Shown here piece by piece: positions 1 through 61,948 of a stretch of DNA of 64,000 nucleotides; the stretch's first letter is position 1, and every line of letters starts with the position of its first letter. The position numbers and the translations under genes were made by a program. Below the pieces are notes generated by a model. It ran no database searches, had not been told where the DNA came from, and was given only the letters and a program-made list of their open reading frames with translations. Source of the DNA: Cephalotus follicularis (lineage: Eukaryota; Streptophyta; Magnoliopsida; Oxalidales; Cephalotaceae); the NCBI GenBank assembly GCA_001972305.1, contig BDDD01002650.1, positions 101,305 through 165,304 on the forward strand, written 5' to 3'.

Positions 1-333
1 NNNNNNNNNNNNNNNNNNNNNNNNNNNNNNNNNNNNNNNNNNNNNNNNNNNNNNNNNNNNNNNNNNNNNNNNNNNNNNNNNNNNNNNNNNNNNNNNNNNN
101 NNNNNNNNNNNNNNNNNNNNNNNNNNNNNNNNNNNNNNNNNNNNNNNNNNNNNNNNNNNNNNNNNNNNNNNNNNNNNNNNNNNNNNNNNNNNNNNNNNNN
201 NNNNNNNNNNNNNNNNNNNNNNNNNNNNNNNNNNNNNNNNNNNNNNNNNNNNNNNNNNNNNNNNNNNNNNNNNNNNNNNNNNNNNNNNNNNNNNNNNNNN
301 NNNNNNNNNNNNNNNNNNNNNNNNNNNNNNNNN
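1..333. other. Assembly gap (N)
   Basis: All bases are N. Nothing can be said about its content. The true flank of the hAT element to the right may lie inside it. Confidence 1.
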
Positions 334-4318: not shown

Positions 4319-4467
4319 TGTAATAACCGCAAATTCAATCTGTGTATATTGTACTCTTGATGAATAAAATATGCACTTACTTGAATTTTAATGTCTACTT
4401 GTTATATGAATTGTGGTTGTGAATTCAATTGAGAAAATAAACTTGAGCAACCAAAGTCAGGCAAAAC

Positions 4468-4586
4468 AACCGACTGTTACAGGGTAACAGTCGACTGCTT
4501 GGGGAAACAGCCGACTGTCACAGGGGAACAGTCGACTGTTTGATGCGTGAGTGGACAGTCGACCTCCTGTTAAAGACAGTCGACTG
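4468..4586 (+). repeat. Iterated CAGTCGACTG block I of LTR1
   Basis: Six copies or near copies of the 10-bp palindrome CAGTCGACTG (variants CAGCCGACTG, CAGTCGACCT) are spaced by about 10-20 bp of unrelated sequence, 150-270 nt from the LTR start. Confidence 0.85.
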
Positions 4587-5621: not shown

Positions 5622-5739
5622 AGCAGTCGACTGTTCTTCATGACAGTCGACTACTCAACCTATCCAGTCGACTGTTAAGAGAAAACAGTCGACTACTCAA
5701 TCAAAACAGTCGACTGTTCTTGAGAACAGCCGACTGTCC
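5622..5739 (+). repeat. Iterated CAGTCGACTG block II of LTR1
   Basis: Six copies or near copies of CAGTCGACTG (some CAGTCGACTA, one CAGCCGACTG) alternate with short spacers that partly recur (TTCTTCATGA, ACTCAACCTATC). The block lies about 1.3 kb from the LTR start. Confidence 0.85.
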
Positions 5740-6521
5740 TGGGTTGAAATGCTGATATAGGTCCTGTTTGGGTCTCAATTTAAATGTAATTAACTTGGCC
5801 TCCATACGGATGATTAGTGTAATGACCGCAAATTCAATTAATGTATATTGATTCCATTGTTAAAATAAATATACATTTTAATTGAATTATTTGTCCAATT
5901 ACTATGTTATATGCTTTGCTTGTATGCCAAGGTTGAATTGATGTGTAAATAGGCAAAACAACCTAAGTAAACGTAAATAATCAGCCTCAACAGTCGACTG
6001 TCACAGGGCAACAGTCGACTGGGTTGATTCGTGGAGTGACAGTCGACTGGCCACCTAAAGCAGTCGACTGGAATTGCAGCAGAACAGGTGTCTGTGCATG
6101 TGTGAGACAGAACAGGGGCGTGGCATGCAAGGGGACAGGTGTTGTGGGCATGCCACCAGCTGCCATGACATGCAAGGAAAGCCCTTGCATGTGCTCTGCA
6201 AGATTTCAGACCTGTACCTGCAGAAACAAAAGAAATAAAAGTGAGAAATGACAATGAAGGAAGTAAGGCATGTGAGAGAGAGAATGGAGAAAATGTTAGA
6301 GTAAAGGACTCTAGCGAATTCAAGAATTCCTGAGCTTATATCAGCTGTCTAGGAGCTGAATGTGAGTGTTAGAAAACACTGATTTGAGGTGGATTGCTGG
6401 AATTGGTGAAGGCTTGCTTTGGAAGGATTTGGAGAACTCAAAGAAGGAACCTTGAAGCTTTGGTCTCTTGGTAAGTTCTCAATCCGAATTCTCTGTTGTT
6501 ATGATATGATAATGTAACTAG

Positions 6522-7662: not shown

Positions 7663-7828
7663 AGCAGTCGATTGTTCTTCATGGCAGTCGACAGTCGACT
7701 GCTCAACCTATCCAGTCGACTGCCAAGGCAAAGAAGTCGACTACTCAACCTATCCAGTCGACTGCCAATGCAAAGCAGTCGACTACTCAACCAAGGCAGC
7801 CGACTATTCTTAAAGGCAACCGACTGTC
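7663..7828 (+). repeat. Iterated CAGTCGACTG block II of LTR2
   Basis: About nine copies or near copies of CAGTCGACTG, including one pair overlapping at 7685-7700. Phrases such as CTCAACCTATC and TGCCAA(G/T)GCAAAG recur as spacers. Confidence 0.85.
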
Positions 7829-18465: not shown

Positions 18466-18603
18466 ACAAAGCGCCGACGCTCTCTTTAGAACCGCCGACG
18501 CTTTGGCTGTGGTGTGGCAAGTCGACGCCTAAACGTGTGTTTTCGACGCGTTTTGTAATTAAGTGCTTAACCGTCGACGCTTTAAGCAAACTGTCGACGC
18601 TTT
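18466..18603 (+). repeat. Iterated GTCGACGC block I of LTR B1
   Basis: Six copies or near copies: GCGCCGACGCT, CCGCCGACGCTTT, AGTCGACGCC, TTCGACGCG, CGTCGACGCTTT, TGTCGACGCTTT. 135-270 nt from the LTR start. Confidence 0.85.
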
Positions 18604-33643: not shown

Positions 33644-33780
33644 GAAAGCGTCGACAGTTTGTTCCTAGGCGTCGACGGTTTCATTGCACAAAAGGACAAA
33701 GCGTCGAGTAAAGAGTCGACTGACCACAGCACAAAACAATACAAAGCGGCGATGCTCAAGGAATAAGCGTCGACGGTTTG
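33644..33780 (-). repeat. Iterated GCGTCGACGG block II of LTR B2
   Basis: Five or six copies or near copies (AAGCGTCGACAGTTT, GGCGTCGACGGTTT, AAGCGTCGAGTAA, AGAGTCGACTG, AAGCGTCGACGGTTT) with spacers of 15-30 bp. Confidence 0.8.
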
Positions 33781-34540: not shown

Positions 34541-34684
34541 GCTGACTAAAGCGTCGACTGTTTACTCAAAGCGTCGACAGTTAAGCACTTAAATATAAAA
34601 CGCGTCGATGTCACACGTTTAAGCGTCAAAGTGTCACACAACACCCAAAGCGTTGGCGGTTCTAATAAGAGCGTCGGCGCTTTG
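34541..34684 (-). repeat. Iterated GCGTCGAC block I of LTR B2
   Basis: AAGCGTCGACTGTTT, AAGCGTCGACAGTT, CGCGTCGATGT, AAGCGTCAAAGT, AAGCGTTGGCGGTT and GAGCGTCGGCGCTTT over 144 bp, 115-258 nt from the LTR start. Confidence 0.8.
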
Positions 34685-34802
34685 TGCCCAGAAAATAAAA
34701 GAATTTCAAACTAAAAATCAAAGCGTTCACAAACCATAGCATATATCAAAAGGTATAAACCCAACATAAAACATGTAAGCATAGAGACGGGATATTACAG
34801 CA

Positions 34803-38533: not shown

Positions 38534-38740
38534 AACGTCACAGTATGTGTCCAAAGCATCGACAAAAACTTGACATTTAACAAAGAAAATCGTCGACTCT
38601 TACATCTAACAAAGAACCAAAGCGTCGACAGTTTCATTGCAAAAAGGAACAAATCGCAAAGCAAAGTATCGACTAAACACAGCATAAAACAGTTTAAAGC
38701 GGTGACAATTAAAAGACAAGCGTCGACGGTTTGCGTCGAA
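38534..38740 (-). repeat. Iterated GTCGAC block II of LTR B3
   Basis: Six to seven decayed copies: AGCATCGACA, ATCGTCGACTC, AAGCGTCGACAGTTT, AGTATCGACT, AAGCGGTGACA, AAGCGTCGACGGTTT. Confidence 0.75.
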
Positions 38741-39475: not shown

Positions 39476-39615
39476 AAAGCGTCGCCGGTTTCTCAAAAAG
39501 CATCGACGTTTAAACACTTAAATACAAAACGCGTCAAAGTCACACGTTTTGGCGTCAACGTGTCTCACAGCACCCAAAGCGTCAGCAGTTCTAAATAGAG
39601 CGTCGGCGCTTTGTG
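39476..39615 (-). repeat. Iterated GCGTCGAC block I of LTR B3
   Basis: AAGCGTCGCCGGTTT, AGCATCGACGTTT, CGCGTCAAAGT, TGGCGTCAACGTG, AAGCGTCAGCAGTT and GAGCGTCGGCGCTTT, 120-259 nt from the LTR start. Confidence 0.75.
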
Positions 39616-42366: not shown

Positions 42367-42491
42367 TGTAATAACCGCAAATTTCAATTAATGTATATTG
42401 TATAATGAATAAAGTATGCATTATATTGAGATTTATGCCCAATTACTTGCAAATATGGTGAAATACACTTAAGAAACAAAAACCAGCCTCA

Positions 42492-42572
42492 AACAGCCGA
42501 CTGTCACAGGGCAACAGTCGACTGGTGGTTTGTAGTGTGAAAGTCGACTGCCTGTTAAAGACAGTCGACTGG
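42492..42572 (+). repeat. Iterated CAGTCGACTG block I of element E
   Basis: CAGCCGACTG, CAGTCGACTG, AAGTCGACTG and CAGTCGACTG. In the 3' LTR the same place (49687-49742) has lost part of the block by deletion and base change, so the two LTRs of one element differ here. Confidence 0.85.
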
Positions 42573-43004
42573 AAGGACACAAAACATGTGTCTGTGCATG
42601 TATGTGAGACAGAGCAGGGGCAGTGCAAGATGGACAGGTGTTATGTGAGTCAACAGCTACCATAACATGCAAGAAGAGTGCCTTGCATGTGCTCTGCAGA
42701 CCTGCAAACATGCAAACAAAAAATTGAAAGAAGTAAAGTGAGTGGAAGTTATGCATGTGAGAGAGAGAAAAGAGGTGGCTGAGTTCATGGAATCTGACAA
42801 TTTTTAAGACTTGTAAGCTCTATATCAGTTGTTAGAATAGAGTGTGAGTGTTAGAAAACACTGAGGATAGAGGAGATCTTGCTGGGATTCTTGGAGCTTG
42901 CATGTTGGAAGTTGGAGTTTCAAAGGGAGTTGAAGCTTGAATCTTCCTGGTAAGTCACCAATCCGAGTCTGCTGATGTTGATGATGTAACTAGGAGAATG
43001 TTAG

Positions 43005-43038
<34 letters not shown>

Positions 43039-43459
43039 TCTGTTAACATGATTAAGGTTAATAAGTTTGGAATTGAAATAGAATTGGTAAAAGGTTCAAA
43101 GAAGAAGTTGAAACTAGGAACTGAATAATTGATAAGCTACTATTGGAACTGGTAATTGACTAGGTAATTAGTTAAATGTACTGGTTAAATGTCTGAACGT
43201 TTGAACATGCAATGGTATAGATCAATGCTGCTGAGATTGGAAGATTAAATTGGTGTAAGAGCTTTGGACATTAAAGAGAGAAAGCAATCCAAATTGATTT
43301 TAGGATAGCGTTTAAGGTAAGGGTATTGACATGTTTTCGAAGATATAACGTGCATATCATGTGTGGATAATTTCCTGTTTGATTGCATGTGTTGTTGAGT
43401 TAGTATTTTTGACATTTAACACGCATGTGCTGTTATTGCCTGTCAATATCTGGGCAAAG

Positions 43460-43573
43460 GAATCGACTGTTCTTCATGACAGTCGACTACTCAATCAAAC
43501 CAGTCGATTGTTAAGAACAAACAGTCGACTACTAAATCAAAACAGCCCATTGTTCTTGGGAACAGTCGACTGT
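43460..43573 (+). repeat. Iterated CAGTCGACTG block II of element E
   Basis: Six copies or near copies, one decayed to CAGCCCATTG, separated by TTCTTCATGA, ACTCAATCAAAC and TTAAGAACAAA spacers like those of LTR1 and LTR2. Confidence 0.85.
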
Positions 43574-44871
43574 CCTGAGATAAATTTCTGATATAGGCAT
43601 TGTTTAGGCCTTAAATTGAATGTAATTACCCTTGCCTCCATATGGGATGATTGTAACAGTCAATCCTGGCCTTATATAATTACATTTCAGAAATGAAACA
43701 ACGTATGCACCCCGTGTGAGAGTTGTGCAAGAATGACTATGGTATACTAATGACCTTATTGAATCCTTGAATTGCTATTGTCCTTTACTGTTTTGCTGTA
43801 TATGCTACTGTTACAATTAGTGTATACTAGTTTGGGTGTTCATAAACACTATTGTTACCTTACTTCCAAAGGATTGAACCAACTAAGTGCTATGTGCACA
43901 ATTAATGATTTCAACTATCATTTTCAAATGAAACCTAATGATTTCTGATTTTTCCTCCAAGAGAGGCACCACTACCGTATTGAATACTGTTCCTCCAAGG
44001 AGATGCACAGTTTTTGAAATGTTAAATGTTTCTAAAGAAAACTACTCCTATATTTCATATATTATGCATGTGATATTGTTATTGAATTGATTGTGTATGC
44101 TATTGCCGATTAGTCGAGTGATGGCAGATGTCACTGGCTAACGAGGTGGCCCTAGGTGCCAGGAGTTGGCGAGAGTACCTACCCAAACTATCTGCAATGC
44201 AGATCCTGATTATTACCTGCCCATTAAATACTGACAGAATTGACCTGATATATCATCTTCGGAGTGTAAGGTGATAGTTAGGTGGTGCGCAGTTGGTGCT
44301 AGGAGTTAACGACATGTGACACCCAAACCACTGTACTGATTGATTTTACCCTTGTGTGGTATTCTTGATTTGTACTATCTATGGCCACTTGGCATGATTG
44401 CTTATATATTGGAATACTTAAATATGTTATTTTAAATATAAAATGTCATACATGTTGCATTTATATATTCCTTATCATGCATTATTCCTACTTAGCCAAG
44501 TGAGGACAATGGCTAACCCCTACAATTTCAGATTAAGTGAAGGCGTTCAGGGTGGTGCTGCTGAAGCTTATTGGAGAGCTTCTATCTGCTTAAGGTTTTT
44601 AATTATCTTGTATTGTATTTGTACTGAACGATCATACTCCATTGTTATTATGCTTTACATTTCCTATATGTAAAAGGATAATTGTTGGTATTGTGTAAGC
44701 ACGTAGTATGGGCTACGTGCGGATAATTTTATAATCTGGATTTAAATGCTTATGCTATTGTTGTTGATGAGGTTCACATTGATATTGAATGCTGGATTAT
44801 TATTATATTAACTGATATCACCATATATGTTGTCTATAATGGAATGGATCAGGAATCAGGGTGTGACAGCA

Positions 44872-44883: not shown

Positions 44884-44958
44884 TATCACTGGGATAAGTT
44901 TCTCGGTAATTAAGTGAATTGTTTCCTAATGATTATGTCATTCCATATAGGAAACTGA

Positions 44959-46836: not shown

Positions 46837-47541
46837 GATTATCTTGATAAGGGCTTCATCAGACTGAGTGTGTCACCGTGGGGAGCACCGGTACTGTTTA
46901 TGAAAAAGAAGGATGGTTCGATGCGGCTATGCATCGATTACAGGCTGCTAAATCAGGTAACTGTGAAGAACAAGTATCCTCTGCCACATATTGAGGAATT
47001 GTTCGACCACTTGCAAGGCTCTACTTTATTCTCCAAACTTGACCTGAGAACAGGTTATCATCAACTGAGGATCCGGGAAGGTGATGTGGAGAAGATCGCA
47101 TTTCAAACCCGATATGGGCATTATGAATTTCTGATACTGCCGTTTGGGTTGACCTATGCTCCTGCAGCCTTTATGTGTTTGATGAATAGAGTGTTCCAGC
47201 CCTATCTTGACCAGTTTGTCGTTATATTCTTAGATGACATCTTGATTTATTCAAGGAGTATTGAGGAACACATGCAACATTTGGAGATTGTGTTGCAGAC
47301 ATTGCGGAAGGAACAGTTGTTCGCCAAATTCAGCAAGTACGAGTTTTGGCTGGATCATGTGACTTTCCTAGGTCACATTGTGTCGAGTGAAGGATTGTCA
47401 GTGCATCCTTCAAAGATAGAGAGTATTGTTGATTGGCCCCAACCGAGGAGCGTTACCGAGGTTCATATCTTCTTGGGATTGGCTGACTACTACCGAAGGT
47501 TGATCAAGGGGTTTTCGAAGCTTGCTACACCATTAACATAG
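46837..47541 (+). pseudogene. Element E reverse transcriptase
   Basis: [71 protein letters not shown] and [15 protein letters not shown] with the catalytic aspartates intact. The TAG at 47539-47541 lies at the RT to RNase H junction (LAT, then PLT). Confidence 0.92.
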
Positions 47542-48090
47542 TTGACTCAGAAGAAGTCAAGTTTTGTGTGGGATGATTCTTGTGAGGCAAGTTTCCAAGA
47601 GTTGAAGAGTCGGTTGATTTCGGCTCCAGTGTTGGTATTTCCGGAGGGTAATGAGGGTTTTATTGTCTATACTAATGCTTGTGGGAAAGGACTGGGATGC
47701 GTTCTTATGCAACATGGTAGGGTGATTGCATATGCATCGAGGAAGTTAAAACCGTACGAAGAAAATTATCCCAAACATTATCTTGAGTTGACAGCCATAG
47801 TGTTCGCTTTGCAGAAATGGAGGCACTACCTCTACGTTGCTCAATTTGAGATCTTCACTGACCATAAAATTTTAACGTATTTGTTTTCCCAGAAGGATCT
47901 CAACATGAGACAAAGACGATCAGTGGAGTTCTTTAATGATTATAACTGCAACATTCAATACCACCCAGGAAAGGTGAATGTAGTGGCCGATGCGCTGAGT
48001 CACAAGGCAATGATTGCTGGGGCAATGGTTTCACAATGGAAGCTTTTGGAAGAATTTCAGAGATGGAATCCGTTCATGGTTTCCCGGGGC
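47542..48090 (+). pseudogene. Element E RNase H region
   Basis: [35 protein letters not shown] (the first catalytic aspartate is asparagine), [27 protein letters not shown] and [11 protein letters not shown] frameshift at about 48070-48095 moves the frame before the integrase. Confidence 0.88.
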
Positions 48091-49529
48091 GTTCACAACC
48101 GGAGCTTCTGGAGCGTATTCTGACCGCTCAATACAGAGACACTGAGTTATGGAGTATTCGTGAGAATCTAGACACTGATTCTGAATTCTCCATTCATACT
48201 GATGGCATATTGATGTTCCGAGGAAGGATATGTGTTCCGGGTGACGAGAGCATCAGGGATGAGCTACTGCAGCAAGCTCACAAGTCAAAATACAGTGTTC
48301 ACCCTGGAAGTTCCAAGATGTGGCATGACATGAAAAAGAACTACTAGTGGAGTGGTATGAAAAGAGAGATTGTCGAATACGTAGCAAGATGTTTGACCTG
48401 TCAGAGAGTGAACGCTGAACATCAGAAACCTGCGGGACTGCTACAATCATTACCAGTGGTTGAGTGGAAATGGGAACATGTGACCATGAACTTCGTGTCG
48501 GGATTACCGAGGTCACGAAATCAGCATGAAGCAGTGTGGGTTGTAGTGGACAGACTCACTAAGTCTGCTCACTTTCTTCCAATGAACATGTCATATTCTA
48601 TCGAGAAGTTGGCTCGATTGTATATCCGGGAGATAGTGAGATTACATGGAGTGCCGACCAGTATTGTTTGTGACCGAGATGCTAGATTCACTTCGAGGTT
48701 CTGGAAGAAGTTCCAAGTAGCGATGGGAACAACATTGAACTTCAGCACTGCGTTTCACCCACAGACCGACGGACAGTCCGAGCGTACCATTCAGACTCTT
48801 AAAGATATGCTACGGGCTTGTATGATTGATTTCGCTAGGAGTTGGGAGGATCATCTGTCATTGATTGAGTTCTCTTACAGCAACAGTTTCCACACTAGCA
48901 TTGGAATGGCTCCCTATGAAGCCTTGTATGGGAGAAAGTGCAGATCGTCTATTTGCTGGGACAAGGTAGGTGAGAGACAAGTGCTTGGACCCGACTTGGT
49001 ACAAGAGATCACTGATAAAGTGGAAGTGATCAAGAAGAGGTTGTTAGCTGCACAAAGTCAGCGGAAGAGTTATGCCGACGTAAAGAGGAGGAGGCTAGAA
49101 TTCGAGAAGGGAGATCATGTTTTCCTGAAGATCTTACCTTTGAAAGGGATACACCGTTTTGGCCTTAAGGGGAAGTTGGCTCCAAGGTATATTGGACCTT
49201 ATGAGATACTGGAAAGAGTGGGGGATGTGGCATATCAGATTGTACTACCGCGTAGTTTGTCGGGTGTGCATAACGTATTTCATGTTTCCATGTTACGAAA
49301 ATACGTGCCTGACCCATCTCACATATTGAGCTACGACCCTGGATTCATCAATCCTAGATTGTCTTATGAAGAAAGGCCGACGAGGATCATGGATCGAATG
49401 CATAAGGTGCTGAGGAATAAGACTATTCCTATGGTGAAAGCACTGTGGCATTTTCACGGAGCTGAGGAAGCTACGTGGGAGCGTGAAGCCAAAATGATGG
49501 AGACATTTCCACACTTGTTCGAAATATAA
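48091..49529 (+). pseudogene. Element E integrase and chromodomain
   Basis: HHCC region (AHKSKYSVHPGSSKM, CLTCQRVN) with a TAG at 48345 in place of a conserved tryptophan codon. From 48357 an open 390-codon stretch holds the core: MNFVSGLP (first catalytic aspartate changed to asparagine), [24 protein letters not shown]. Then [32 protein letters not shown] and the chromodomain ([29 protein letters not shown]) ending at 49529. Confidence 0.92.
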
Positions 49530-49557
49530 GGGCTAAATTCGAGGACGAATTTTCTTT

Positions 49558-49570
49558 AAGAAGGGGGGAA
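49558..49570 (+). other. Polypurine tract of element E
   Basis: AAGAAGGGGGGAA immediately precedes the 3' LTR start at 49571. Confidence 0.88.
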
Positions 49571-50197
49571 TGTAATAACCGCAAATTTCAATTAATGTAT
49601 ATTGTATAATGAATTATATTGAGATTTATGCCCAATTACTTGCATATGTGGTGAAATACACTTAACAAACCAAAACCAGCCTCAAACAGCCGATTGTCAC
49701 TGGGCAACAGTCGACTGGTGGTTCATAGTGTGACAGTCAATTGGGATGACATAGAACAGGTGTCTGTGCATGTATGTGAGATAGAGCAGAGGCAGTGCAT
49801 GATGGATAGGTGTTATGCAAATCAGCAGCTACCATAACATGCAAGAGGGGTGCCTTGCATGTGCTCTACAGACCTGCAAACAAAAAATTGAAAGAAGTAA
49901 AGTGAGTGGAAGTTATGCATGTGAGAGAGAGAAAAGAGATGGCTGAGTTAATGGAATCTGACGATTTCTAAGACTTCTAAGCTCTATATCAGCTGTTAGA
50001 ATAGAGTGTGAGTGTTATAAAACACTGAGGATAGAGGAGATCTTGCTGGGATTCTTGAAGCTTGCATGTTGGAAGTTGGAGTTTCAAAGGGAGTTGAAGC
50101 TTGAATCTTCCTGGTAAGTCACCAATCCGAGTATGCTGATGTTGATGATGTAACTAGGAGAATGTTAGCTATATATATATCTTCTGTTAACATGATT
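49571..50197 (+). repeat. 3' LTR of element E, truncated
   Basis: It matches the 5' LTR from TGTAATAACCGC to CTGTTAACATGATT, with small deletions (about 16 bp near 49612, and loss of two motifs in block I). Of 2.5 kb only 627 bp remain. Element F begins 2-3 bp later and the missing part does not reappear in the window. Confidence 0.9.
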
Positions 50198-50336
50198 TAT
50201 GTAAATCACATTTGTACTTCCAAAAGGGGTAAAACGTTTCACAATCAACACTAACCAACCCGAAATACAATTGAACACGGTACAAGATGCATACATACGC
50301 TCACAATGCAAAACGGTTCCATCAATCGGTCGTTTC

Positions 50337-50815
50337 TCACTGACAGTCGGCTGTTTTCCTTCAACAGTCGGCTGTCCCACACTTGGCAGTCGGCTGCCCT
50401 CAACCACCAGTCGGCTGCCCTCCTTGGCAGTCGGCTGTCACATGCCAACAGTCGGCTGCTTTCCTTGGCATTCGGCTGTCACCCACTTAGCAGTCGGCTG
50501 CCCTCTCCAGGCAGTCGGCTGGCCCAACACAATACACATTCCTTGCTGCCACCTGTCCCAGCATGCCCGGGAGAGTGACACGTGGATAGTCGGCTGTTAC
50601 CCAAAACAGTCGGCTGGACCACCACACAGTCGGCTGCCTTCCTTGGCACTCGGCTACACAAACAACAGGAAGAACCTGCAATTCCAGGCACAACAGTCGA
50701 TTGGCTCCAGTGCCCAGTCGGCTGTTCTCCTTGGACAGTCGGCTGTTACCCAAAATAGTCGACCGCTAGCCTTGGACAGTCGGCTGTTTTCCCTGGACAG
50801 TCGACTGCCCCCACG
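50337..50815 (-). repeat. Iterated CAGTCGGCTG block II of element F
   Basis: About 19-20 copies or near copies, the largest block in the window. Spacers are 8-20 bp, often CCTTGG or CCAAAA phrases. A 100-bp motif-poor stretch at 50525-50585 divides it. Confidence 0.9.
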
Positions 50816-51345
50816 GGCAGTGCCCAAAAACAGCAGCAAAACACACACTTCAATCCGCATTTAAACCATTCCAAGCCACAAACATTATCACCACAATACA
50901 CATCCAGGCTTTTATCACAATATTACACATGCACTTCACTCATAACATCATTATAAATGACTTTGAATCACAAATATAGCTTTCCCCTACCTTAGAACTC
51001 CAAGTTAGGAGTTACAGCCCACCTCTTTAAGTCTTAGATCTGAGGTCCTTGCACCTCCAACCACGTCCAGCAGCCTTCCACGGGTCCGGATCCTGCACTG
51101 GTCCGAGCCTCCAAGCCACGGTTCAACACCAACTCCGTATGTCCACAACACACACACACACTTTCACTCCAAACTCACCTTCAAACACACTTGAATCACA
51201 AAGGAGATGAAGATTGAGGAGAGGAAGTTGTGTTTTTATGAAGGAGACCCGCCCCCCCCCCTCTCTCTGCCAAATGCCACAAAATGCCAAAACTCCAACC
51301 TTTTATCATTTTATGGCTGACAGCACGTGGCTGTCTGGCGCATGG

Positions 51346-51480
51346 CAGTCAACTGCCATGCCTTGGCAGTCGACTGTTTCTGCCGACAGTCCCACCAGCC
51401 GGTTGCTTCCTCCAAAGCAGCTGGCTGCCACCTTCACCAGGGGAGTCCAGTCGGCTGCCTCTATGTGGCAGTCGGCTGCC
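51346..51480 (-). repeat. Iterated CAGTCG(G/A)CTG block I of element F
   Basis: Seven copies or near copies including CAGTCAACTG, CAGTCGACTG, CAGCTGGCTG and CAGTCGGCTG, 140-275 nt from the LTR start. The same block recurs in the 5' LTR stub at 52207-52345. Confidence 0.85.
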
Positions 51481-51620
51481 CCCTGCACCAAAAGCACACT
51501 ACACACTTTTCTTGCAACTTTTACCACACCAAAGGGGAAAAACACAATTCTCATTAATTCCACGTATAAAATTACATTAAAATGCAATATTACACCTTAA
51601 CGAAAATCCCGGGCGTTACA

Positions 51621-51908
51621 TCCACCCCTCCTTCAAGGAATTTCGTCCTCGAAATTAAAACAACACCAAGACAAAAGAGAAAAACGCTCTCGCATTTTCT
51701 CTTTCGCTATCCCTCGTCTGTCCACGGCCACAGCCGCATATGGTTCACCTTCACTTACAACCCTTACAAGGAGTTGGTCCTCCCCAAACAGTTGCTTACA
51801 ACACAGACAGTCCGTAGACCCAGAACAACTCTTATTGGTAACAACAAGTCACTTACAAAAGCAAAAGAAAACAAACTCATGCTTAAAACAAAAGTAAGGA
51901 CTGTTACC
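51621..51908 (-). pseudogene. Element F polypurine tract and pol end scrap
   Basis: CCTTGAAGGAGGGGTGGA (minus strand, 51638-51621) is the polypurine tract. Just upstream KEKMRERF can be read, the tail of a chromodomain. 51700-51908 is not identified; it links this scrap to the gag fragment after a deletion of nearly all of pol. Confidence 0.65.
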
Positions 51909-52160
51909 TCACATGACGCCCTTGCCGGTGTCCCTTCGCTGTGAAGGCCCAGCTGCAGCGCCACTACCGCCAGTAGGTCCTGCGGTTACTGCCATAGAAA
52001 TCTCTGGACAATCCCTCACCAAGTGACCAGATGCTCCACACTTCATACACAGCCCTTTCTTTACCCGACAATCCTTCACTTGATGACCGGTACGACCACA
52101 GTGGAAACAAACTCCAGGCCTCCTCTCTCTGCCAAATGCCACAAAATGCCAAAACTCCAA
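51909..52160 (-). pseudogene. Element F gag zinc-knuckle fragment
   Basis: Two CCHC knuckles, CFHCGRTGHQVKDC and CMKCGASGHLVRDC, followed by [11 protein letters not shown], which element H also has. The frame runs at its N-terminal side into LTR sequence across the deletion junction, so the first residues are LTR-derived. Confidence 0.85.
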
Positions 52161-52483
52161 CCTTTTATCATTTTATGGCTGACAACACGTGGCTGTCTGG
52201 CGTATGGCAGTCGACTGCCATGCCTTGGCAGTCGACTGTTTCTGCGGACAGTCCCACCAGCCGCCTGCTTCCTCCAAAGCAGCTGGCTGCCACCTTCACC
52301 AGGGGAGTCCAGTCAGCTGCCTCCATGTGGTAGTCGGCTGCCCCCTGCACCAAAAGCACACTACACACTTTCCTTACAACTTTTACCACACCAAAGGGGA
52401 AAAACACAATTCTCATTAATTCCACGTATAAAATTACATTAAAAATGCAATATTACACCTTAACGAAAATCCCGGGCGTTACA
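52128..52483 (-). repeat. 5' LTR stub of element F
   Basis: The first 356 bp of the F6 LTR, nearly identical to 51250-51620. The rest of the LTR and the primer site are deleted. Confidence 0.88.
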
Positions 52484-53286
52484 GTTTGAGAATGAGAGAA
52501 GTATTTCTTGTCTTACAAAACAAATTCACTTTTGTGAATATTATGTTGTTGTCGTGTGCTATTTCAATGGAGAAACAATTACTACACTCACATGATTTCT
52601 CAACCAATGAGAATCATACAACACACCACTCTCACATACACTCAAGGCCGACCATAAAGGACATTGTAGAGAAAAATATAGGAAACTTAATGGCTAAGTA
52701 AGTTGACTATGTCAAACCTTCTAGAACTATTTAGCTCCCAACTAAAATGCAACAAAGTATAAACTATGTTACATTGGGCACTTAAAGGAAGCATTGGGCC
52801 AGCCCCTCATGAGCCTTTCCAATGCTTTAAGGTTCGGCCCTTTAGTCTCAAAAAGCACTCTCTCTCCAAGAATTCTCAATAATTCATAAATAACCAAAAT
52901 ACCCCTTAGCCCAGAACAATCTATTTATGGTGCAGCTTGAACTCACTTCCTTAAAAATGACAAAGTCAAGAAAAATAAATGTTCACTAGCCAAGTAACAT
53001 CTCTAGATTCCATCCTCTCACTAAATGACATGTGTCTCATTACACGTCAATTGATTCCAAAACCAGGTGGGACCCGAAAGCCATGTTGGATTCCGGTACA
53101 ATGATATATTTCTCATAACATCCCAAAGTTCTGGTACGACCATCTCAATAGTCTTTTGACTATCTAAATAGCCCTGGCATGATCTCCAATCACCCCCGGA
53201 TCCGTGGACTAAAGTACCACGTGTACCATACATTAGCTGGATAACCTGTACTTTCTTCACTATCATCGGTTTATGTGTCATTTATC
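52484..53286. other. Unassigned intergenic sequence
   Basis: About 0.8 kb of non-coding DNA between elements F and G. It has no motif block, LTR ends or recognisable coding signal. Phrases such as AGCATTGGGCCAGCCCC look like LTR or UTR DNA of an older element, but I cannot place it. Confidence 0.4.
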
Positions 53287-55150
53287 TGTAATACCCTATT
53301 CGTTCGTAAATGTATTTTTATGGATTCGTAAATGTTTTTTTTTGCGAATTTTATCTGTATTTCGGGCTTTTAATTTTGTTTAATTTTAAAGTCCGGTTGC
53401 CCTATGATCGGGTTTATGTGAATTTTGCGGAACGATTACCGGTCCGAAATTCGGGTATGTTATGCTATGTTGGGTTTTGTAAATTCTTATTTTAATCCAA
53501 AACTTATTTTATTAAAAACAATTATTATTTGGTTTAATGTGGAAATCATTTGAACCATTTTCAGTAGCAAATCGTCGGATTTCCAACTGTTCTGTCGCCC
53601 AGAACAGCCGACTGTCTGAGTGGACAGTCGACTGGAATGATTGTGTAGTCGACTGGATTGAAGAACACAGTCGACTACCTGCATTTTTGGTTGAATAGTC
53701 GACTGTTCATATGATCCAGTCGGCTGCCAAGCCAAACCAGTTGACTGGACCCCTGTTCCAGTCGACTATCATGCCCTGGAATGTGCTGTTTTCACCCGTT
53801 TTGATTCGTTTGACCCCCGAATCGATCCGAATCTTTTCCAAACACTTTTGTGAGTTTGTTTAATGCTTCTAATGTGTTTTAAACTCTTATACATATGATT
53901 TTGAATGTCTTTATAGATTGTTGAATTTCAATTGGATTCCGTTTAAAATTGTCTATTCGTAAGTACTTTGCAAGCGCATAAGGTACGGATTTTCTGTTCC
54001 TTGGCTATCTGACATTCAAACTGAAACTGTTTTGATAAACATATTCGTTTATAAACTCAATGATGTTTCATGATTTTGATACGTTTTGAATTTAAAGTTG
54101 GTTTGACATTTTAATTGATTCCGACTTTAACTACACGATATGTTAGGATACGATATGTTAAGATATGACCAGTTTTTGAAACTGTTGTGACCAGTTTTTG
54201 AATATGTTGTGAGGAACACATATTTATGTGATTTAAGTTGATTTTGATAAATCAATTATTTTAATTTAAATACTGAGTATTGTAGCCACCTATGGGGCGT
54301 ATCCATATGCACGTCGTGGGCCTGGCACGGGGACGTGACACTTCCGTAGCGGTGTGATTAGACTACGGCGTCTCTGAGTGTATGAACGAATCCCATGAGG
54401 TGGATTTGTGGATCCGCTATGTGATAGATGCGAATGAATCGATTCTAGTTTATGATATGTGATCTAGTGAATGATCAAATATGTGATCAGATGGTTGATC
54501 TGATATATGATATGTGAGAATTGACTGTGTAGTGCCGTACACTTCAATTCTAGTGGGCATGTGGAATTAGCTACTTCCTTGCCAAAATTATGATATGTGA
54601 TATGAATATGGCTCAGTATGTTTGACGAACTACGAGTTATAGCGTTTTAAATTGTTTCGTAATTGTTTCGAAAGATATGAAATTATCATTTGAATATGAT
54701 TTAACTGTTTTATCTATTAAAGATTTCTGTTACGTTATTATTGAAATATTACTGTTTTTAAATTACCGTTACTGTTTTATTTCCCTTATCCGTACTGAGG
54801 TTTGCTCAGCCGCGTTTTTGTTTTCCATGCGGCAGGTTTTCAGGAGCAGCGGGGAAAAGTGTGATTGAGTGATGACCACCTTATGTGTTGGATCCTTAGG
54901 AGAGTGATCCCTATGCTATGTTTAGTGGACGGAAACATGAATTTTTATGTTTTATGTTTTAAATTGGAACTGGTTTATATTTTGAATTTTCCGCAACCAC
55001 TTAATATGTTAAATGTTAAGTTTTAATGTTTTGATAAAACCGTCATGTTTTCGGCTGTTATTGGCTAATAAAACAAACTTATGATTTTGTTAGAGTTATG
55101 TTATGTATGATATGACCCTGTGATGACTCCCACCGTCCGGGGGTGTTACA
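53287..55150 (+). repeat. 5' LTR of element G (F7, 1,864 bp)
   Basis: TGTAATACCCTATTCG...GGGGGTGTTACA. One motif block at 53605-53770. Paired inverted repeats CTGAG/CTCAG (54795-54809) and GCCGC/GCGGC are almost identical in sequence to those of F2. Confidence 0.92.
53605..53770 (+). repeat. Iterated CAGTCGACTG block of element G
   Basis: Eight to nine copies or near copies: CAGCCGACTG, CAGTCGACTG, TAGTCGACTG, CAGTCGACTA, CAGTCGGCTG, CAGTTGACTG. A single block, 320-485 nt from the LTR start. Confidence 0.87.
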
Positions 55151-55156
55151 GAATTA

Positions 55157-55168
55157 TGGTATCAGAGC
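55157..55168 (+). other. Primer-binding site of element G
   Basis: TGGTATCAGAGC, 6 nt after the 5' LTR, matching the initiator tRNA-Met site. Confidence 0.93.
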
Positions 55169-55328
55169 AATAGGTTTTGTTTCCTTAGAAAAGCTAACTA
55201 GGTTTGACCTGTGAGCTTGGGTAAACACTGGGTTAGGCTGTTTCGGTTATAATTTTTTGATATGTTTTCTGTTTTCTGCTTTCTGTTTTGTTCGTCGTGA
55301 TGTTTTAAGTTTGAGCGCCTTTTCGTAG

Positions 55329-55769
55329 ATGGCACGTACAAGGAATGCTGTCGGAGGACTTCACCCGTCGAGGCTCAGGAAGCTAGAAATGAGCCTACCA
55401 TGGAGGAGCTCGTACGTTAGGCAGTCGCTCAGGAGATACGACGCGCATTGAATGAACAGAATCAGAATCAGGACCGTAGGGAGCCGGTTGCTGCTAATGA
55501 TGCTCCAGCTGATTTCCAGTTGGGAAGAGATGCTGTTGGGGACAGGACTGTTACGCCTACTTATGTTTGGATTGAGCGGTTCCAGAAGCAGAGACCGCTG
55601 TCTTTCAGCTCAGCCGTGACTCCGGTGGAAGCTGAGCACTGGATTGCTAACATGGACAAGATCTTTGATGTGCTTGGTTGCAGTGATGAACAGAAGATCA
55701 AGTTAGCTGTATACAAGCTTGAGGGTGATGCTCAGAAATGGTGGAAAGCTATATTTGGAAGCCATTTTC
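55329..55769 (+). pseudogene. Element G gag, 5' part
   Basis: ATG at 55329 (MARTRNAVGG); a frameshift soon after leads to EAQEARNEPTMEELV, a TAG at 55418, then AVAQEIRRALNEQNQNQ. The gag core follows: AEHWIANMDKIFDVLGCSDE, VYKLEGDAQKWWKAI. Homology stops near 55769. About 35 codons expected before the second part are missing. Confidence 0.85.
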
Positions 55770-55808: not shown

Positions 55809-57074
55809 TGTAAAGTAATGATTTTTCATTAAACTACAATGCACTTCCATAACATGTTATAACAGCTTAATCTCAATATCCACAATACACAAAACAGTTC
55901 ATAAAGCTTCACGAAGCGAAACATCACAATACCCGATGCATACATATGTTCACGGGCCAAACAGGCCCCCAACAGTCGACTGCCCACCACTGGCAGTCGG
56001 CTGTCCCCCACAAAATAGTCAGCTGCCAGTCCTAGGCAGTCGGCTATATGACAAGGCAGTCGGCTGTCTACCTTGACAGTCGGCTGCCAACTCTCGACAG
56101 TTGGCTGGTCCTCAGGACAGTCGGCTGTCCACACCCCCACAGTCGGCTGTTGACCTACGACAGTCGACTACACTACCCCTGCAGACATATCCTGGACACG
56201 AAGGTGGGTAGTGGACTGGCCTCTCCAGACAGTCGGCTGGACCCCCAGGCAGTCGACTGTCCAAGGTGGGCAGTCGGCTGGATTCTGCAGCAGGTGTGAA
56301 AACCAGCTGCTAAAACAGCCTCAAGCATTCACCAAACACAACTCAAAATGACATATTTATGCACATACACGTTCCAAACTCACAATACAACATAAACATG
56401 CATTTTATTTCATCAACGACATTTTAAATTGAAATTATGTTGCAAAAACGACTTCCCCCTTCCTTAGAACTCCAAGTTAGGAGTTGCAATCCACCTCTTT
56501 AAGCTTAAATCCGAAGCTCTTGCTACCCCAAAACGATCAGCCACCTTCAACAAGCCCGAAATCCCACTGCCAAGCCTCCAAACTTTCGGTTTCAACACAA
56601 ACCTCACAAGGCCTCAACACACACACACACACACTTTCACTCTCAAACTCTCTTGAATCACAAGGGAAGATGGAGAAAGAAGAGAGAAATGTTGTGTTTT
56701 ATGGAGAAACTCCAGGCCCCTCCTCTGCCAAAGCAATAAAACCAAAATACCCCACCTTCCATCACTTAAGGCAGACAACACGTGGGCTGTCTGGCATATG
56801 GCAGTCGACTGCCTTGCTTGGCAGTTGGCTGTTTCTGCCGACACTCCCACCAGTCGGCTGCCTCCTCTTGGCAGCTGGCTGCCATGCCTCAGCAAGGGTC
56901 CAGTCGGCTGCCTCCCTGTGGCAGTCGGCTGCCCCTGCACAAAAACACACAACAACACACTTTCTTGCAACATTTCAACAATGGAAAGAGGGAAAACACG
57001 ATTCTCATTAACACAAGGTGTAAAATTACATTGGGAAGCAATATTACACATAAATGAAAATCCCGGGCGTTACA
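55809..57074 (-). repeat. 3' LTR of element H (F6, about 1,266 bp)
   Basis: On the minus strand it starts TGTAACGCCCGGGATTTTC. The end is placed at TTACTTTACA by analogy with element F. Block I 56800-56930, block II 55972-56280, both of CAGTCGGCTG type. Confidence 0.82.
55972..56280 (-). repeat. Iterated CAGTCGGCTG block II of element H
   Basis: About 13 copies or near copies with spacers of 8-20 bp, interrupted by a 60-bp motif-free stretch at 56170-56230. Block I (56800-56930) has six more. Confidence 0.87.
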
Positions 57075-57119: not shown

Positions 57120-59669
57120 CTAGAACAAGTGAGAGTAACGCTCCCTCATCTCCTCTTCACGTTCCCAAGTTGCCTCTTCAGGACGGTGAAATTGCCACTG
57201 AACCTTTACCATAGGAATGGTTCGGTTCCTCAGCACCTGCGTCTTCCAATCCAGGATCCGCACAGGTAACTCCTCGCAAGATAGGTCATCTCGCACAGGG
57301 ACTGAAGCAAAGTCCAGGACATGCGGAGGATCTCGGACATATCCCCGCAACATGGATACATGAAAGACGTCATGCACACTTGACAGTGCAGGAGGTAAAG
57401 CAAGCTGGTAAGCCACCTCCTCAACTCTCTCCAGAACCTCGAAGGGACCAATGTAGCGTGGAGCTAACTTGCCCTTCTTCCCAAACCTCTGAACGCCTTT
57501 CCACGGTGAAACCTTCAAAAACACATGATCACCGACGTCGAAGGTTAAAGGTCTTCTCTTTACACTGTCGACATAGCTCTTCTGCCGGCTCTGAGCAGCA
57601 AGTAGTTTCTCTTTTATAAACTTGACTTTCTCAGAAGTCTCCTCCACCAGGTCTGAGCCCAACAAGGGTCGTTCACCAACCTCATCCCAACACACAGGGG
57701 ACCTGCACTTCCTCCCATACAAAGCCTCAAACGGTGCCATGCCAATGCTGGAATGATAGCTGTTATTATAAGCAAACTCTATCAAGGGAATATGGTCCTC
57801 CCAGGTACCAGCAAAATCAACAATACAAGCTCGGAGCATATCCTCCAGGGTCTGGATAGTACGCTCTGACTGGCCATCTGTCTGTGGGTGGAAAGCTGTG
57901 CTCAAGTTCAGCTTCGTCCCAAACGCTGTCTGAAACCTCCTCCAAAAGTTGGAAGTGAAGATCGAGTCTCTGTCACAGTCTATACTCACCGGAACACCGT
58001 GCAGTCTTACGATCTCCTTCACATACAACCGAGCCAACTTGCTCGCGGAGTCAGAAACATGAGTAGGCAAAAAGTGAGCTGACTTCGTGAGTCGATCCAC
58101 AATTACCCACACTGCATTGTGGCGGTTCTGAGTCAAAGGAAAACCCGAAACAAAATCCATCGTCACATGCTCCCACTTCCACTCAGGAATCGGTAGGGGC
58201 TGTAACAACCCTGCTAGCCTCTGATGTTCGGCCTTAACTATCTGGCATGTATAACACTTCGCGACATAGTCCGCGATCTCCCGCTTCATGCCGGACCACC
58301 AGTAGTGCCTTTTCAGATCTTGGTACATCTTAGTGCTACCAGGGTGTATACTGTACTGAGACTTATGTGCTGCATTCAACAACTCACTCCTTATCCAAGC
58401 ATCACTAGGAACGCACACCCGTCCCTTAAACCTCAGAACACCATCAGCATGCAATTGAAACTCAGACTCTGGACCCAGATTCTCTCGAATCTCTAGCAAC
58501 TCAGGATCACGCAGCTGTGCATCCTTTATATGGCCCAAAAGTGCTGGCTGTGCGTGAACACTTGCAACAAAACCCCCCGGTGCTCTGTTATAAGGCGACC
58601 ACTCCTGGAAGTCCTCCAACAACTTCCACTGAGACACCATGGCATTGGCAACCATGGCCTTACGGCTTAGGGCATCCGTGACAACATTCGCCTTCCCTGG
58701 ATGGTACTGAATACTGCAGTCGTAGTCATTAAAGAACTCAACCCAACGACGCTGCCTCATATTCAAATCATCCTGACTGAACAAGTACCTCAGGCTCTTG
58801 TGATCGGTATAGATCTCAAACTGTGCTTCGTACAGGTAATGTCTCCATTTCTGAAGAGCAAAAACGATAGCCGCCAGCTCGAGATCATGAGTCGGATAGT
58901 TCTCCTCATATGGCTTCAACTTCCGCGAAGCATAAGCGATCACCCTGCCTCGTTGCATCAACACGCAACCCAGGCCCTTGCCCAAAGCATCACTGTACAC
59001 TGTAAAGCCCTCATTACCCTCAGGTAATGCCAGAACAGGAGCGGAGATTAGCCGATCCTTCAGATCACAGAAACTGGTTTCACAGTCATCATCCCAAACA
59101 AACAAGGTTTTCTTCTGAGTCAGCCTTGTCAAAGGTACCGCTATCCTCGAGAAGTTCTGAATGAACCTCCGATAGTATCCCGCCAAACCAAGGAAACTAC
59201 GTACCTCTGTCACATTTCTCGGACGCGGCCAATCTCGCACCACCTCTGTCTTCGACGGATCCACCGCCAAACCCTCTCCAGACATAATGTGGCCCAAGAA
59301 GATCACATGGTCGAGCCAGAACTCGCACTTGCCAAACTTAGCATACAACTTATGCTCTCGGAGAGCCTGCAAAACTAACCTCAAATGATAGACATGCTCT
59401 TCCACACTCCTTGAGAACAACAGTATGTCATCTATAAACACCACCACAAACTGGTCCAGATATGGTCGAAACACGTCGTTCATCAAGGACATGAACGTTG
59501 CTGGTGCATTGGTGACACCAAAAGGCATAACCAAGAATTCATAGTGGCCATACCTCGTTCGGAAAGCAGTCTTCTCTACATCTCCTTCCTTCACCCTCAG
59601 CTGGTGATAACCCGACTTCAGATCAAGTTTAGAAAACACACTCGACCCTTGCAACTGGTCAAACAGATC
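57120..59669 (-). pseudogene. Element H pol: RT, RNase H, integrase, chromodomain
   Basis: 844 open codons from 59654. [53 protein letters not shown]. RNase [41 protein letters not shown]. Integrase: [54 protein letters not shown]. Then [34 protein letters not shown] and the chromodomain ([30 protein letters not shown]). Separated from the upstream frame only by the TAG at 59670, which sits in the RT motif PHI-x-DLFDQL. Confidence 0.93.
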
Positions 59670-60836
59670 CTAGATGTGTGGAAGAGGATATTTGTTCTTA
59701 ATAGTCACCTTGTTCAACATCCTGTAGTCGATGCAAAGCCTCATCGACCCATCCTTCTTCTTCACAAAAAGCACGGGCGCACCCCAAGGAGAAAAGCTGG
59801 GTCGCACAAAACCCTTATCGATCAAGTCTTGCAACTGCAACTTCAACTCTCGCAGCTCAGCAGGAGCCATACGGTAAGGCGCCTTAGAAACAGGAGCCGT
59901 ACCCGGTACTAGATCGATTACAAACTCCATACTCCTCCTCGGCGGCAAGGACGCTAGATCTGGAGGAAACACATCCGGAAACTCACTTACAACAGGAACC
60001 TCCTCCAGACTTTTGCCCTTTTCCTTCCTTGTGTCAACCACATGTGCAAGGAACCCCTCACACCCTTTTTCCAGATACCTTGATGCACGAATAAAGTATA
60101 TAATCGGCATCGAGAAGCCTCTGTCTCCCTGGAACTGGAAAGTAGTCCCATCAGGCAAGCAAAGATCCACCACCTTGTTGTAACAGTCCAGTTGTGCCCG
60201 GTAGGCTGACAACCAGTCCATACCCAAGATAACATCAAAGTCACAAAGGGGTAGCACGATCAAATCTGCACGCAACATAACACCTGCAACAGAAAGCTCA
60301 CAACCTCGGTACACCGAGTCTGCACACATGGAACCCCCAGAGGGTGTGCTCACATCAAGAACAAAAGGCATACAAACAGGAGACACATTCAAACATGATG
60401 CAAAACGGGAAGCAATGAAAGAATGTGATGCTCCTGAATCCATCAAAGCTCTAGCAGAGAAACCATAAACATATACAGTACCTCCCACAACAGAAGTAGA
60501 CTCTGGAACCTCTGTCTGAGTGAGAACAAAAACTCTACCTTTCACGATGCCCTTGCCAGTATCTCTGCGCTGTGATGGCCCTGCTGCGGAAGCACTACCA
60601 CCAGCTGGCCCAGTAGTTGTCGTCGCTGTTCCCTTCGGGCAATCCCTCACGGAATGCCCCGCTGTACGGCACCTCAGACATAGCCCTTTTTTCAGCCAAC
60701 AATCCTTCTGCTGATGGCCTGCACGACCACAGTGGTAACAAACCTCGGTCCTAGCATCACTCCCCTGGCTAGGAGCACCCTGTGAAGCTGTCTGCTGGTT
60801 TCTGTTCCTCGGGGACTTGGTCGGGGAACCACTGCC
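59670..60836 (-). pseudogene. Element H nucleocapsid, protease and RT N-terminus
   Basis: Two zinc knuckles ([28 protein letters not shown]), then the protease ([20 protein letters not shown]), a linker ending [19 protein letters not shown], and the start of RT ([28 protein letters not shown]). Same frame as gag and pol. Confidence 0.92.
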
Positions 60837-61715
60837 TTACCACTTGGATGATGCGGGTCTAGACTGACTCTGTGTCTGTCTGTTCTGCTGTGCTAGGGCC
60901 CTCTCGGCCCTGTCCTCAGTCAACACACTTTTCAACAGCCTTGCTTTATGGGTAACCTCTACCAAGGTACCAAGCTCCATCACCCTGATCCGTGACCGAA
61001 GATCCGGCCGCAAGCCCCTTAAGAACCTCCGGACCTTCTTCTCCTCATCTGCAACCAAGTAGGCTGAATGTCTGGCGAGCTCAACAAACCTGGCCTGGTA
61101 CTCGGCCACCGTCATCTCTCCCTGACGTAGCTCCAGGAACTTCGTCTCTCTCCGCTCACGCTCAATGTGTGGCACATACGCTGCCAGAAATTCCTCCTGG
61201 AAACCCTCCCAGGTGCCCACAACTCCGGTATCCTCCCATTTAGCACAGACCATCTCCCACCAGTGAGTGGCCTCTCCCCATAGCCGGTACACGGCAAATC
61301 TCAATTTCTGTCTGTCAGAACACTCCATCACCTCGAAAATCTTCTCAAGGTCCTGAAGCCATCTCTCAGCGGCGGTAGCATCCAACTCTCGCCTGAAGCT
61401 GGGCGGGTTCTGCCTCATAAACCTCTCTAGGTTTCTACCAAACCTGCTACCATCATCAAGAGCACCCTGAGCGGGAGCCATCGGCTGAGCCTGAACATAT
61501 AACCTCCGCATCTCCTCCATATTGGCTGCATTAGCGGCCATCAATTCCTGGTTGGCAGCTATCTGCTGCTGAATGTAGTCGGCGATGCGGTCCATGGGGT
61601 CTCTCACATTCGGCACTGCCTCTGGTGGAGCATTACGATCTCCGCCAACATTCACTTCCTCAGGAACATCCTCGTTCACGGCCCTACACCTTGCGCGTCT
61701 CCTTCGACCGTCCAT
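60837..61715 (-). pseudogene. Element H gag
   Basis: 292 codons from ATG at 61715 (MDGRRRRARCRAVNEDVPEE). The gag core has RWLQDLEKIFEVMECSDRQK, YRLWGEATHWWEMV, ELRQGEMTVAEYQARFVELA and FLRGLRPDLRSR. The TAA at 60839-60837 falls between core and zinc knuckles; one C-to-T change (CAA to TAA) would explain it. Confidence 0.92.
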
Positions 61716-61745
61716 AGGTTCCTATAAGAAAGATGTCATTAGTTG
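61716..61745 (-). other. Element H gag leader remnant
   Basis: About 30 bp of leader sequence remain between the gag start codon and the LTR stub. The primer-binding site is absent. Confidence 0.7.
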
Positions 61746-61948
61746 CAGCTGGCTGCCACGCCTCAGCAAGGGTCCAGTCGGCTGCCTCCCTGTGGCAGTC
61801 GGCTGCCCCTGCACAAAAACACACAACAACACACTTTCTTGCAACATTTCAACACGGGAAAGAGGGAAAACACGATTCTCATTAACACAAGGTGTAAAAT
61901 TACATTGGGAAGCAATATTACACATAAATGAAAATCCCGGGCGTTACA
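61746..61948 (-). repeat. 5' LTR stub of element H
   Basis: 203 bp matching the first part of the 3' LTR (56872-57074) closely, with a few differences. The LTR is cut inside block I at CAGCTGGCTGCC and joined directly to the gag leader. Confidence 0.9.

Follow-up and report, generated by a model that had tools for sequence, protein, structure and literature searches.

The long terminal repeats (LTRs) of several retrotransposon families in a single plant genome carry arrays of a short site, mostly CAGYCGACTG, that recurs for the most part every 20-22 bp. The window analysed here is a 64-kb stretch (C2650:101305-165304) of a source genome of 1,577,397,061 bases (1.58 Gb) in 9,746 contigs, and is a nest of LTR retrotransposons in which four families, F1, F2, F6 and F7, bear such arrays. 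A sequence-only reading of the window had noticed the clusters and proposed a selected cis-acting array; we find that they go far beyond chance and are larger and more regular than first described, and the part of that proposal that stands is a conserved array, most simply one of candidate protein-binding sites. From the sequence of the site we tentatively favour, at a little short of an even chance, the view that the arrays are LTR enhancers for a host factor of the DREB type.

The array at the centre of this work is the second block of an F7 LTR (50344..50807, minus strand). It comprises 18 sites with at most two mismatches from CAGTCGACTG, 13 of which are CAGCCGACTG when read in F7 sense, at a pitch of 20-22 bp with two exceptions, gaps of 67 and 75 bp. 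A 219-aa open stretch (50205-50864, plus strand) runs through this array; a coding repeat was considered and rejected, since the 20- and 22-bp spacings would throw a seven-codon repeat out of frame and the stretch runs antisense to F7.

Carriers of the arrays

The internal region of F7 (57120..61721, minus strand) encodes gag, protease, RT, RNase H and integrase in Ty3/gypsy order, in a single frame with two stops. A search with pol gave plant Ty3/gypsy proteins at about 65% identity and near-full coverage (among 120 of 8,000 matches listed), and the relative P0010 reached 88% identity over 73% among the matches listed; the gag search gave no match at E 0.001. A Tf2-1-like SH3 domain is present and a chromodomain is absent among the Pfam matches. 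The array carriers are Ty3/gypsy elements, and their placing in Tekay is the assignment of the first reading.

The F1 5' LTR spans 42367..44868 (plus strand, end approximate) and is followed by a primer binding site, TGGTATCAGAGC, at 44872-44883; the F6 LTR (TGTAATACCC...GTTACA) spans 53287..55150 (plus strand), with its primer binding site at 55157-55168. Within 50197-57074 two junctions have the appearance of nested insertion: the match to the F1 3' LTR stops near 50197 against F7 sequence, and the gag region behind the F6 LTR is replaced near 55775 by an F7 LTR. F7 LTR DNA also holds reading frames of 110-145 aa, including a 145-aa ATG frame in F7 sense (56614-57051, minus strand) that spans block 1.

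Abundance of the sites

All nine blocks cited in the sequence-only reading hold between 4 and 17 cores (RYCGAC or GTCGRY). The exact 10-mers CAGTCGACTG and CAGTCGGCTG occur 25 and 28 times in the window and CAGCCGACTG four times, and none of the three occurs in any of 30 dinucleotide shuffles. F7 shows CAGTCGGCTG only when viewed on the plus strand: the family lies on the minus strand, and its sense word is CAGCCGACTG, the variant also found in F1 and F6 (plus strand). Pairs of sites that fit CGACTG-N(8-14)-CAGYCGACTG number 36 in the window and none in 100 shuffles.

The same excess holds across the source genome, where counts lie 130 to 210 times above those of reversed controls and thus far from background frequency. 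There are 197,377 copies of CAGTCGACTG against 939 of the same word backwards, and 88,572 forward plus 88,820 reverse copies of CAGCCGACTG (177,392) against 708 and 622 (1,330) of its control, together some 375,000 sites at a density of 238 per Mb, counted over the whole genome in any sequence context. The pair pattern occurs 112,107 + 112,341 times (reversed control, 364 + 315), and 20 stretches of 10 kb sampled at even contig steps yielded 29 sites, all in five of the stretches. In viral, bacterial and archaeal records the CGACTG pair pattern gave one match per stretch (80 of at least 120 and 80 of at least 119 listed); single matches among those listed were taken as chance and not as relatives of the arrays.

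Spacing of the sites

The spacers had been described as irregular, of 8-30 bp. On the contrary, 51 of the 58 site-to-site gaps of 8-33 bp in the window measure 20-22 bp. Among the first 100 exact sites of the listing for contig C1, taken without selection for spacing, there are 43 gaps of at most 33 bp, of which 36 fall at 20-22 bp, six at 27-28 bp and one at 19 bp, and six of eight gaps in the 20 sampled loci are again 20-22 bp. Pooling the window, C1 segments and the 20 loci gives 127 gaps (114 at 20-22, 11 at 27-29 and two at 19 bp), although the C1 segments in this pool were obtained through a pattern that favours 18-24 bp, so that the unselected C1 listing is the cleaner figure.

The second spacing class, of 27-28 bp, often joins two 21-bp pairs and does not fit the 10.5-bp helical repeat. 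Between sites 30-160 bp apart, periodicity is stronger at 10.5 bp (R 0.53) than at 21 bp (R 0.31) or 7 bp (R 0.45), yet the 27-29 bp class departs from the 10.5-bp grid and window gaps other than 20-22 bp have little periodicity (R 0.20, 26 gaps). Helical phasing was therefore rejected as a sufficient account of the layout. A layout of 21-(26..29)-21 was found in 13 cases in F1, F2, F6 and loci outside the window, of which the case at window 7667 relies on an overlapping core and a pair on C1 consists of near-identical copies. It was discarded as a unique signature, since other middle gaps between 21s are equally or more frequent: 20-23 bp in 64 cases, 38-41 in 14, 42-45 in 15 and 46-49 in 13, with 30-33 in six. 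We attribute the gaps of 38-41, 42-45 and 46-49 bp to skipped or lost sites.

Placement within the LTRs

The two-block placement put forward in the sequence-only reading stands for F1 and F2, is seen in F7 as well, and fails for F6. The first intact core lies 122-176 nt from the LTR start in ten F1, F2 and F7 LTR pieces, and a second block follows at about 0.8-1.4 kb in the five F1, F2 and F7 pieces read far enough. F6 has a single block of eight sites (53605..53768, plus strand) whose first core lies about 320 nt in. A further exception is the F1 LTR that starts at 5818, where the next block, at 7665, is 1.85 kb in, across an internal duplication.

In F7, on the minus strand throughout, the LTR that holds the 50344..50807 array starts near 51620 and has its block 1 at 51346..51478; another piece starts at 52483 with block 1 at 52208..52340; the LTR that starts at 57074 has block 1 at 56802..56931 (its first core 146 nt from the LTR start, with TATA-like CATAAAAC at 372) and block 2 at 55973..56280; and two sites at 61775..61805 are a block 1 remnant. 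In F1, on the plus strand, blocks 1 and 2 lie at 4467..4586 (LTR start 4319) and 5624..5736; at 5991..6070 (LTR start 5818, layout 21-28-21), with a block of the second type at 7665..7826; and, in the 5' LTR, at 42494..42571 (layout 21-26-21) and 43460..43572. One intact core remains in block 1 of the F1 3' LTR (49687..49743, LTR start 49571). F2 has a plus-strand block 1 at 18466..18603, with sense cores GYCGACGC, and two minus-strand pairs, one with block 1 at 34551..34690 (first core 122 nt in) and block 2 at 33644..33780 (LTR start 34799), the other decayed (39480..39610 and 38592..38730; LTR start 39735).

Pattern matching puts TATATCAG at 416-524 nt, downstream of block 1, in all four F1 pieces, and CATAAAA likewise at about 372-381 nt in both of the longer F7 pieces; the F2 copies give differing matches to a TATA-like pattern and F6 is represented by one copy. 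As the TATA-like sequence follows block 1, block 2 should fall within the transcript. Counts of sense RYCGAC cores are 8, 8, 12, 15 and 20 in five of 11 LTR pieces and 1, 3, 4, 4, 6 and 6 in the other six, several of which are short or truncated, the F6 piece (6) being read whole.

As in the window, arrays on contig C1 are often paired, with some 1.0-1.3 kb between the two (52929/54129, 377977/379092, 546897/548122). In a further family, whose LTRs start with TGTAATAYCC, the array lies about 1.13-1.36 kb into the LTR (locus L270 5484, locus L271 3166, C1 41996 and 60229); the lopsided variants oppose the LTR in three of these four loci, and the fourth has only GTCGAC.

Variation within the site

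Among single-change forms of CAGTCGACTG in 296 kb, beside 88 intact copies, T4C is found 67 times, C1T 25 times, G3A four times, loss of the CpG twice, and T4A and T4G not at all. The genome-wide counts, which cover T4C, CpG loss, T4A and the double form, show the same preference at position 4 (T 197,377; C 177,392; A 3,752, with a control of 1,011). The CpG is usually what is lost fastest in plant transposable elements; here the CpG-loss form CAGTTGACTG numbers 21,361 (control 4,173).

Independent variation of the two halves would give 39,858 copies of the double variant CAGCCGGCTG; there are 7,846 (control 133), one fifth of that number. This bears on the possibility, which we consider unlikely, that the arrays are sites for a symmetric dimer or for a host factor other than DREB, with an enhancer role retained. 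CAGTCGACTG is a perfect palindrome and the most frequent of the forms counted, as a dimer would suggest, and the palindromic boxes of Sirevirus LTRs are likewise without a single identified binder in the parts of their description considered here (PMC2829016). The five-fold shortage of double variants nevertheless means that the halves are not independent, so that a symmetric dimer, which the sequence-only reading had offered, is no longer the plain reading; moreover, F2 retains the core and not the outer palindrome.

The site varies lopsidedly. In LTR sense the window arrays contain 39 GCCGAC and three GTCGGC, 30 of the 39 being in F7 and partly related by duplication, whereas A-first cores are not lopsided (five sense, four antisense). 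Outside the window, orientation is consistent in seven of the eight arrays with at least two lopsided sites; the F6 array of the window has one lopsided site in each orientation. The lopsided variants run opposite to LTR sense in L270 and L271, as judged from coding regions, and at C1:58922, as judged from an LTR-start-like word only. An array can thus face either way, as an enhancer may. Duplication or shared ancestry could be an alternative source of both the lopsidedness and the shortage of double variants.

The palindrome might instead act in RNA, through hairpins or through pairing between LTR transcripts, in dimerisation or as a source of small RNA; palindromes in maize Sirevirus LTRs were reportedly tied to siRNAs in a 2016 paper. 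When eight pieces were folded and compared with shuffles, two F1 pieces (z -7.1 and -4.7), F6 (z -7.3), F7 antisense (z -5.3 and -8.1) and one F7 sense piece (z -3.3) folded better, but folding was no better than in shuffles for F2 sense (z -0.35) or the second F7 sense piece (z -0.78). On one strand the frequent T-to-C change disrupts the self-pair, paired changes are below expectation, and hairpins need no fixed 21-bp pitch. Hairpins come with the palindrome and weaken where the lopsided variant prevails; RNA is thus not what the arrays have in common, and we regard an RNA feature, also raised by the sequence-only reading, as distinctly improbable.

Descent of the blocks

The families had been presented as all unrelated. 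This does not hold for block 1, whose layout is common to F1, F2 and F7. In F1 and F7 the likeness extends to spacer letters: by eye, block 1 of F1 matches the F7 blocks at 56802 and 61775 in letters of the first-pair spacer. Core offsets are 0, 21, 48, 100 and 120 in F2 (18473) and 0, 21, 71 and 120, with an altered core at 100, in F7 (57074); two other longer F7 copies have 0, 21, 102 and 123. Block 1 was thus inherited, at least in part, from a common LTR. As the sequence-only reading had noted, the F2 flanks differ (GTCGACGC... around the core). Block 1 does not align as a single minisatellite with conserved spacers, an outcome that would have counted against that reading.

Neighbouring spacers are alike in some arrays, notably the two of F1 4467 (identity 0.82, against 0.25 when shuffled) and the six of C1 3056 (0.54 against 0.30). 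Elsewhere the 11-bp spacers are close to shuffled letters while the pitch is kept, as in C1_156293 (eight spacers, 0.29 against 0.26), L270 (six, 0.25 against 0.24), C1_20776 (three, 0.15 against 0.24) and F6, where the four 11-bp spacers are barely more alike than shuffled (0.29 against 0.25). Over 27 arrays, many with just two or three spacers, pooled identity is 0.397 within arrays and 0.291 between them. Tandem duplication made the arrays whose neighbouring spacers are alike.

Copies of the same block were also compared. The proportions of differing cells in cores, array spacers and the rest are 16/137, 79/255 and 784/3,217 in F1 (four copies), 14/90, 40/255 and 252/1,063 in F7, and 16/108, 35/222 and 244/784 in F2; the core has changed less than the spacers only in F1, and in F7 and F2 core and spacers are about equal, both below the rest. 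Pooled CpG changes are 24/146 within cores and 91/276 at other CpGs (Fisher 0.0002, a guide only, because cells are copy pairs and non-independent), in a window with a CpG o/e of 0.61.

These comparisons lend something to a neutral account, in which an old 21-bp tandem repeat without function was spread by retrotransposition. Spacers exceed shuffled identity in several arrays and are more alike within arrays than between them, Tandem Repeats Finder gives units of 20-21 and 41-42 bp, and the F7 and F2 cores are no more conserved than their spacers. It is harder to reconcile with this account that in other arrays an unchanged pitch accompanies spacers as unlike as shuffled letters, and that CpG-loss forms are scarce. 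Because the sites in arrays with dissimilar spacers were chosen by match, this question can be judged only from the pitch and from genome counts made without selection. We judge pure neutrality improbable; the simplest account would be that duplication took place long ago and that both site and spacing came under constraint thereafter.

A candidate binding factor

The DREB reading begins with the core. The degenerate form of the CRT/DRE site is (G/a)(T/c)CGAC, and the array cores fit RCCGAC or GTCGAC. F2 retains this core despite its other flanks, which makes the core the shared part. In PLACE, GTCGAC is CRTDREHVCBF2, a core CRT/DRE motif that the barley AP2 activator HvCBF2 prefers, and ACCGAC is DRE2 (PMC4222965); CCGAC is bound by DREB members (PMC3409865). 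Since the CRT/DRE site accommodates both the core and the changes it tolerates, the likeliest binder would be a DREB/CBF-group AP2/ERF factor of the host. The AP2 domain (PF00847) has at least 76 matches in the genome, across many contigs, a host-like number that would make the factor a host protein; an AP2 protein encoded by the elements themselves was rejected within the reach of this search, as the count is not in the thousands that a transposable-element gene should give.

In the mechanism we envisage, each unit would be one site for a DNA-binding protein, with its (G/A)(T/C)CGAC core mostly within CAGYCGACTG. Block 1 would lie slightly upstream of the TATA-like sequence in F1 and F7, and block 2 downstream, in the presumably transcribed part of the LTR. 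Sites about 21 bp apart, two helical turns, would place many molecules on one face of the DNA, where the stacked molecules may jointly recruit the transcription machinery or hold chromatin open. Array-bearing elements might in this way ride a stress or developmental programme of the host, which could account for the approximately 375,000 sites. If DREB is the binder, CAGTCGACTG and CAGCCGACTG should be bound, and CAGACGACTG, CAGTTGACTG and CAGCCGGCTG weakly.

Several observations count against DREB. The CAG...CTG flank is palindromic, which is needless for a monomeric AP2 site, and it forms no part of the listed CRT/DRE site; the 27-28 bp spacing class is off the helical grid; and a single PLACE match is weak evidence, because PLACE lists many short motifs. 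To our knowledge, promoter arrays of up to about 20 CRT/DRE sites at a 21-bp pitch are not usual. The CBF/DREB form cited in work on maize elements is A/GCCGACNT, from which the array flank differs (PMC4287451), and Rider of tomato has a CBF site yet shows no cold response (PMC6762207). Both of these studies offer a likeness, in that CBF/DREB sites occur in Rider (PMC6762207) and in maize transposable-element families (PMC4287451), and the passages of them covered here describe no spaced arrays.

Relation to known systems

The sequence-only reading knew of no description of such arrays. Among the papers listed by our literature searches none showed this motif in LTRs, and of the 29 that contain CAGTCGACTG the 20 listed deal, by title, with subjects other than plant retrotransposons. 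A precedent exists in Sirevirus LTRs, which have palindromic boxes ahead of their TATA box (PMC2829016). These RM boxes (Bousios et al. 2010, PMC2829016) are, like the sites described here, short palindromic motifs present in LTRs at high copy number; an element has at least 8 and as many as 32 of them, all in the upper LTR half and preceding the TATA box, the motif is common to divergent elements, and there are PLACE matches to sites of stress factors (PMC2829016). In Vitis the box is CGGTCGACCG, which shares its GTCGAC centre with CAGTCGACTG and departs from it at a single base per half (PMC2829016).

There are also differences. Sirevirus is Ty1/copia, whereas by the F7 domain order the arrays described here are in Ty3/gypsy elements, outside the Sirevirus class. 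The CGG-CCG signature of the Sirevirus boxes is missing from the palindrome CAGTCGACTG, and CAGCCGACTG, which is non-palindromic, has CCG alone; Tnd-1, one of the 13 published Sirevirus boxes, is also without CGG-CCG (PMC2829016). The sites analysed here have a pitch of 21 or 28 bp, where the portion of the Sirevirus study considered states none (PMC2829016). The LTRs also bear another block at 0.8-1.4 kb, and a single motif recurs across several families of one genome. The Sirevirus RM boxes are the closest precedent, from which the Ty3/gypsy carriers, the fixed pitch and the second block set the present arrays apart.

For an anti-silencing role the closest model would be the VANC targets of VANDAL elements, which consist of tandem YAGTATTAY motifs (Hosaka et al. 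2017, PMC5735166). By analogy, a protein encoded by the elements or co-opted from the host would bind the sites and remove DNA methylation. The resemblance lies in the form of the VANC21 targets, a short motif with Y positions in many same-orientation copies in non-coding DNA, with tandem growth (PMC5735166); the consistent orientation of seven of eight arrays agrees with it, and a sunflower Tekay element is said to carry an additional ORF (PMC12844716). VANDALs, however, are DNA transposons with their own binding protein and a motif limited to one family (PMC5735166), whereas here one motif is common to several families. No VANC-like protein, and no frame beyond gag-pol, stood out in 42366-62300, and the number of AP2 domains is host-like. 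We consider this role rather unlikely.

Del is the Tekay lineage. A variable CpG-rich stretch has been described in the 5' part of the Del LTR (Cruz et al. 2014, PMC4029996); its CpG islands were reported for monocot groups, and the eudicot copies under study had none; the words 'palindrom', 'tandem' and 'GTCGAC' are absent from the main text of that paper (PMC4029996).

A bolder extension, possible though doubtful, is that one protein reads all of the approximately 375,000 sites at 21- or 28-bp pitch, the arrays forming a helically phased platform that overrides silencing and soaks up the factor genome-wide. Such an array, shared by several families of Ty3/gypsy LTRs and constrained in its spacing, would have no counterpart among the papers that our searches showed. 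If the enhancer reading is true, several retrotransposon families in one plant would rely on a single host switch, which would give a direct handle on why such elements filled the genome, and LTR enhancers would be constrained in spacing as well as in sequence. With so many candidate sites, the supply of the factor to host genes might be affected. The fixed pitch makes the idea easily testable.

Other repeats in the window

A 169-bp unit at 426-749 is exactly duplicated in tandem (1.9 copies, 100% match) near an N gap at 1-333, and may be an assembly artefact at the gap edge. The tandem repeats at 15969-16127 (53-bp unit) and 13085-13227 (37-bp unit) have consensus sequences without GTCGAC. 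At 7906-10413 there is a 1.25-kb tandem duplication of 80% identity, which also matches the F1 LTR at 43217-44868.
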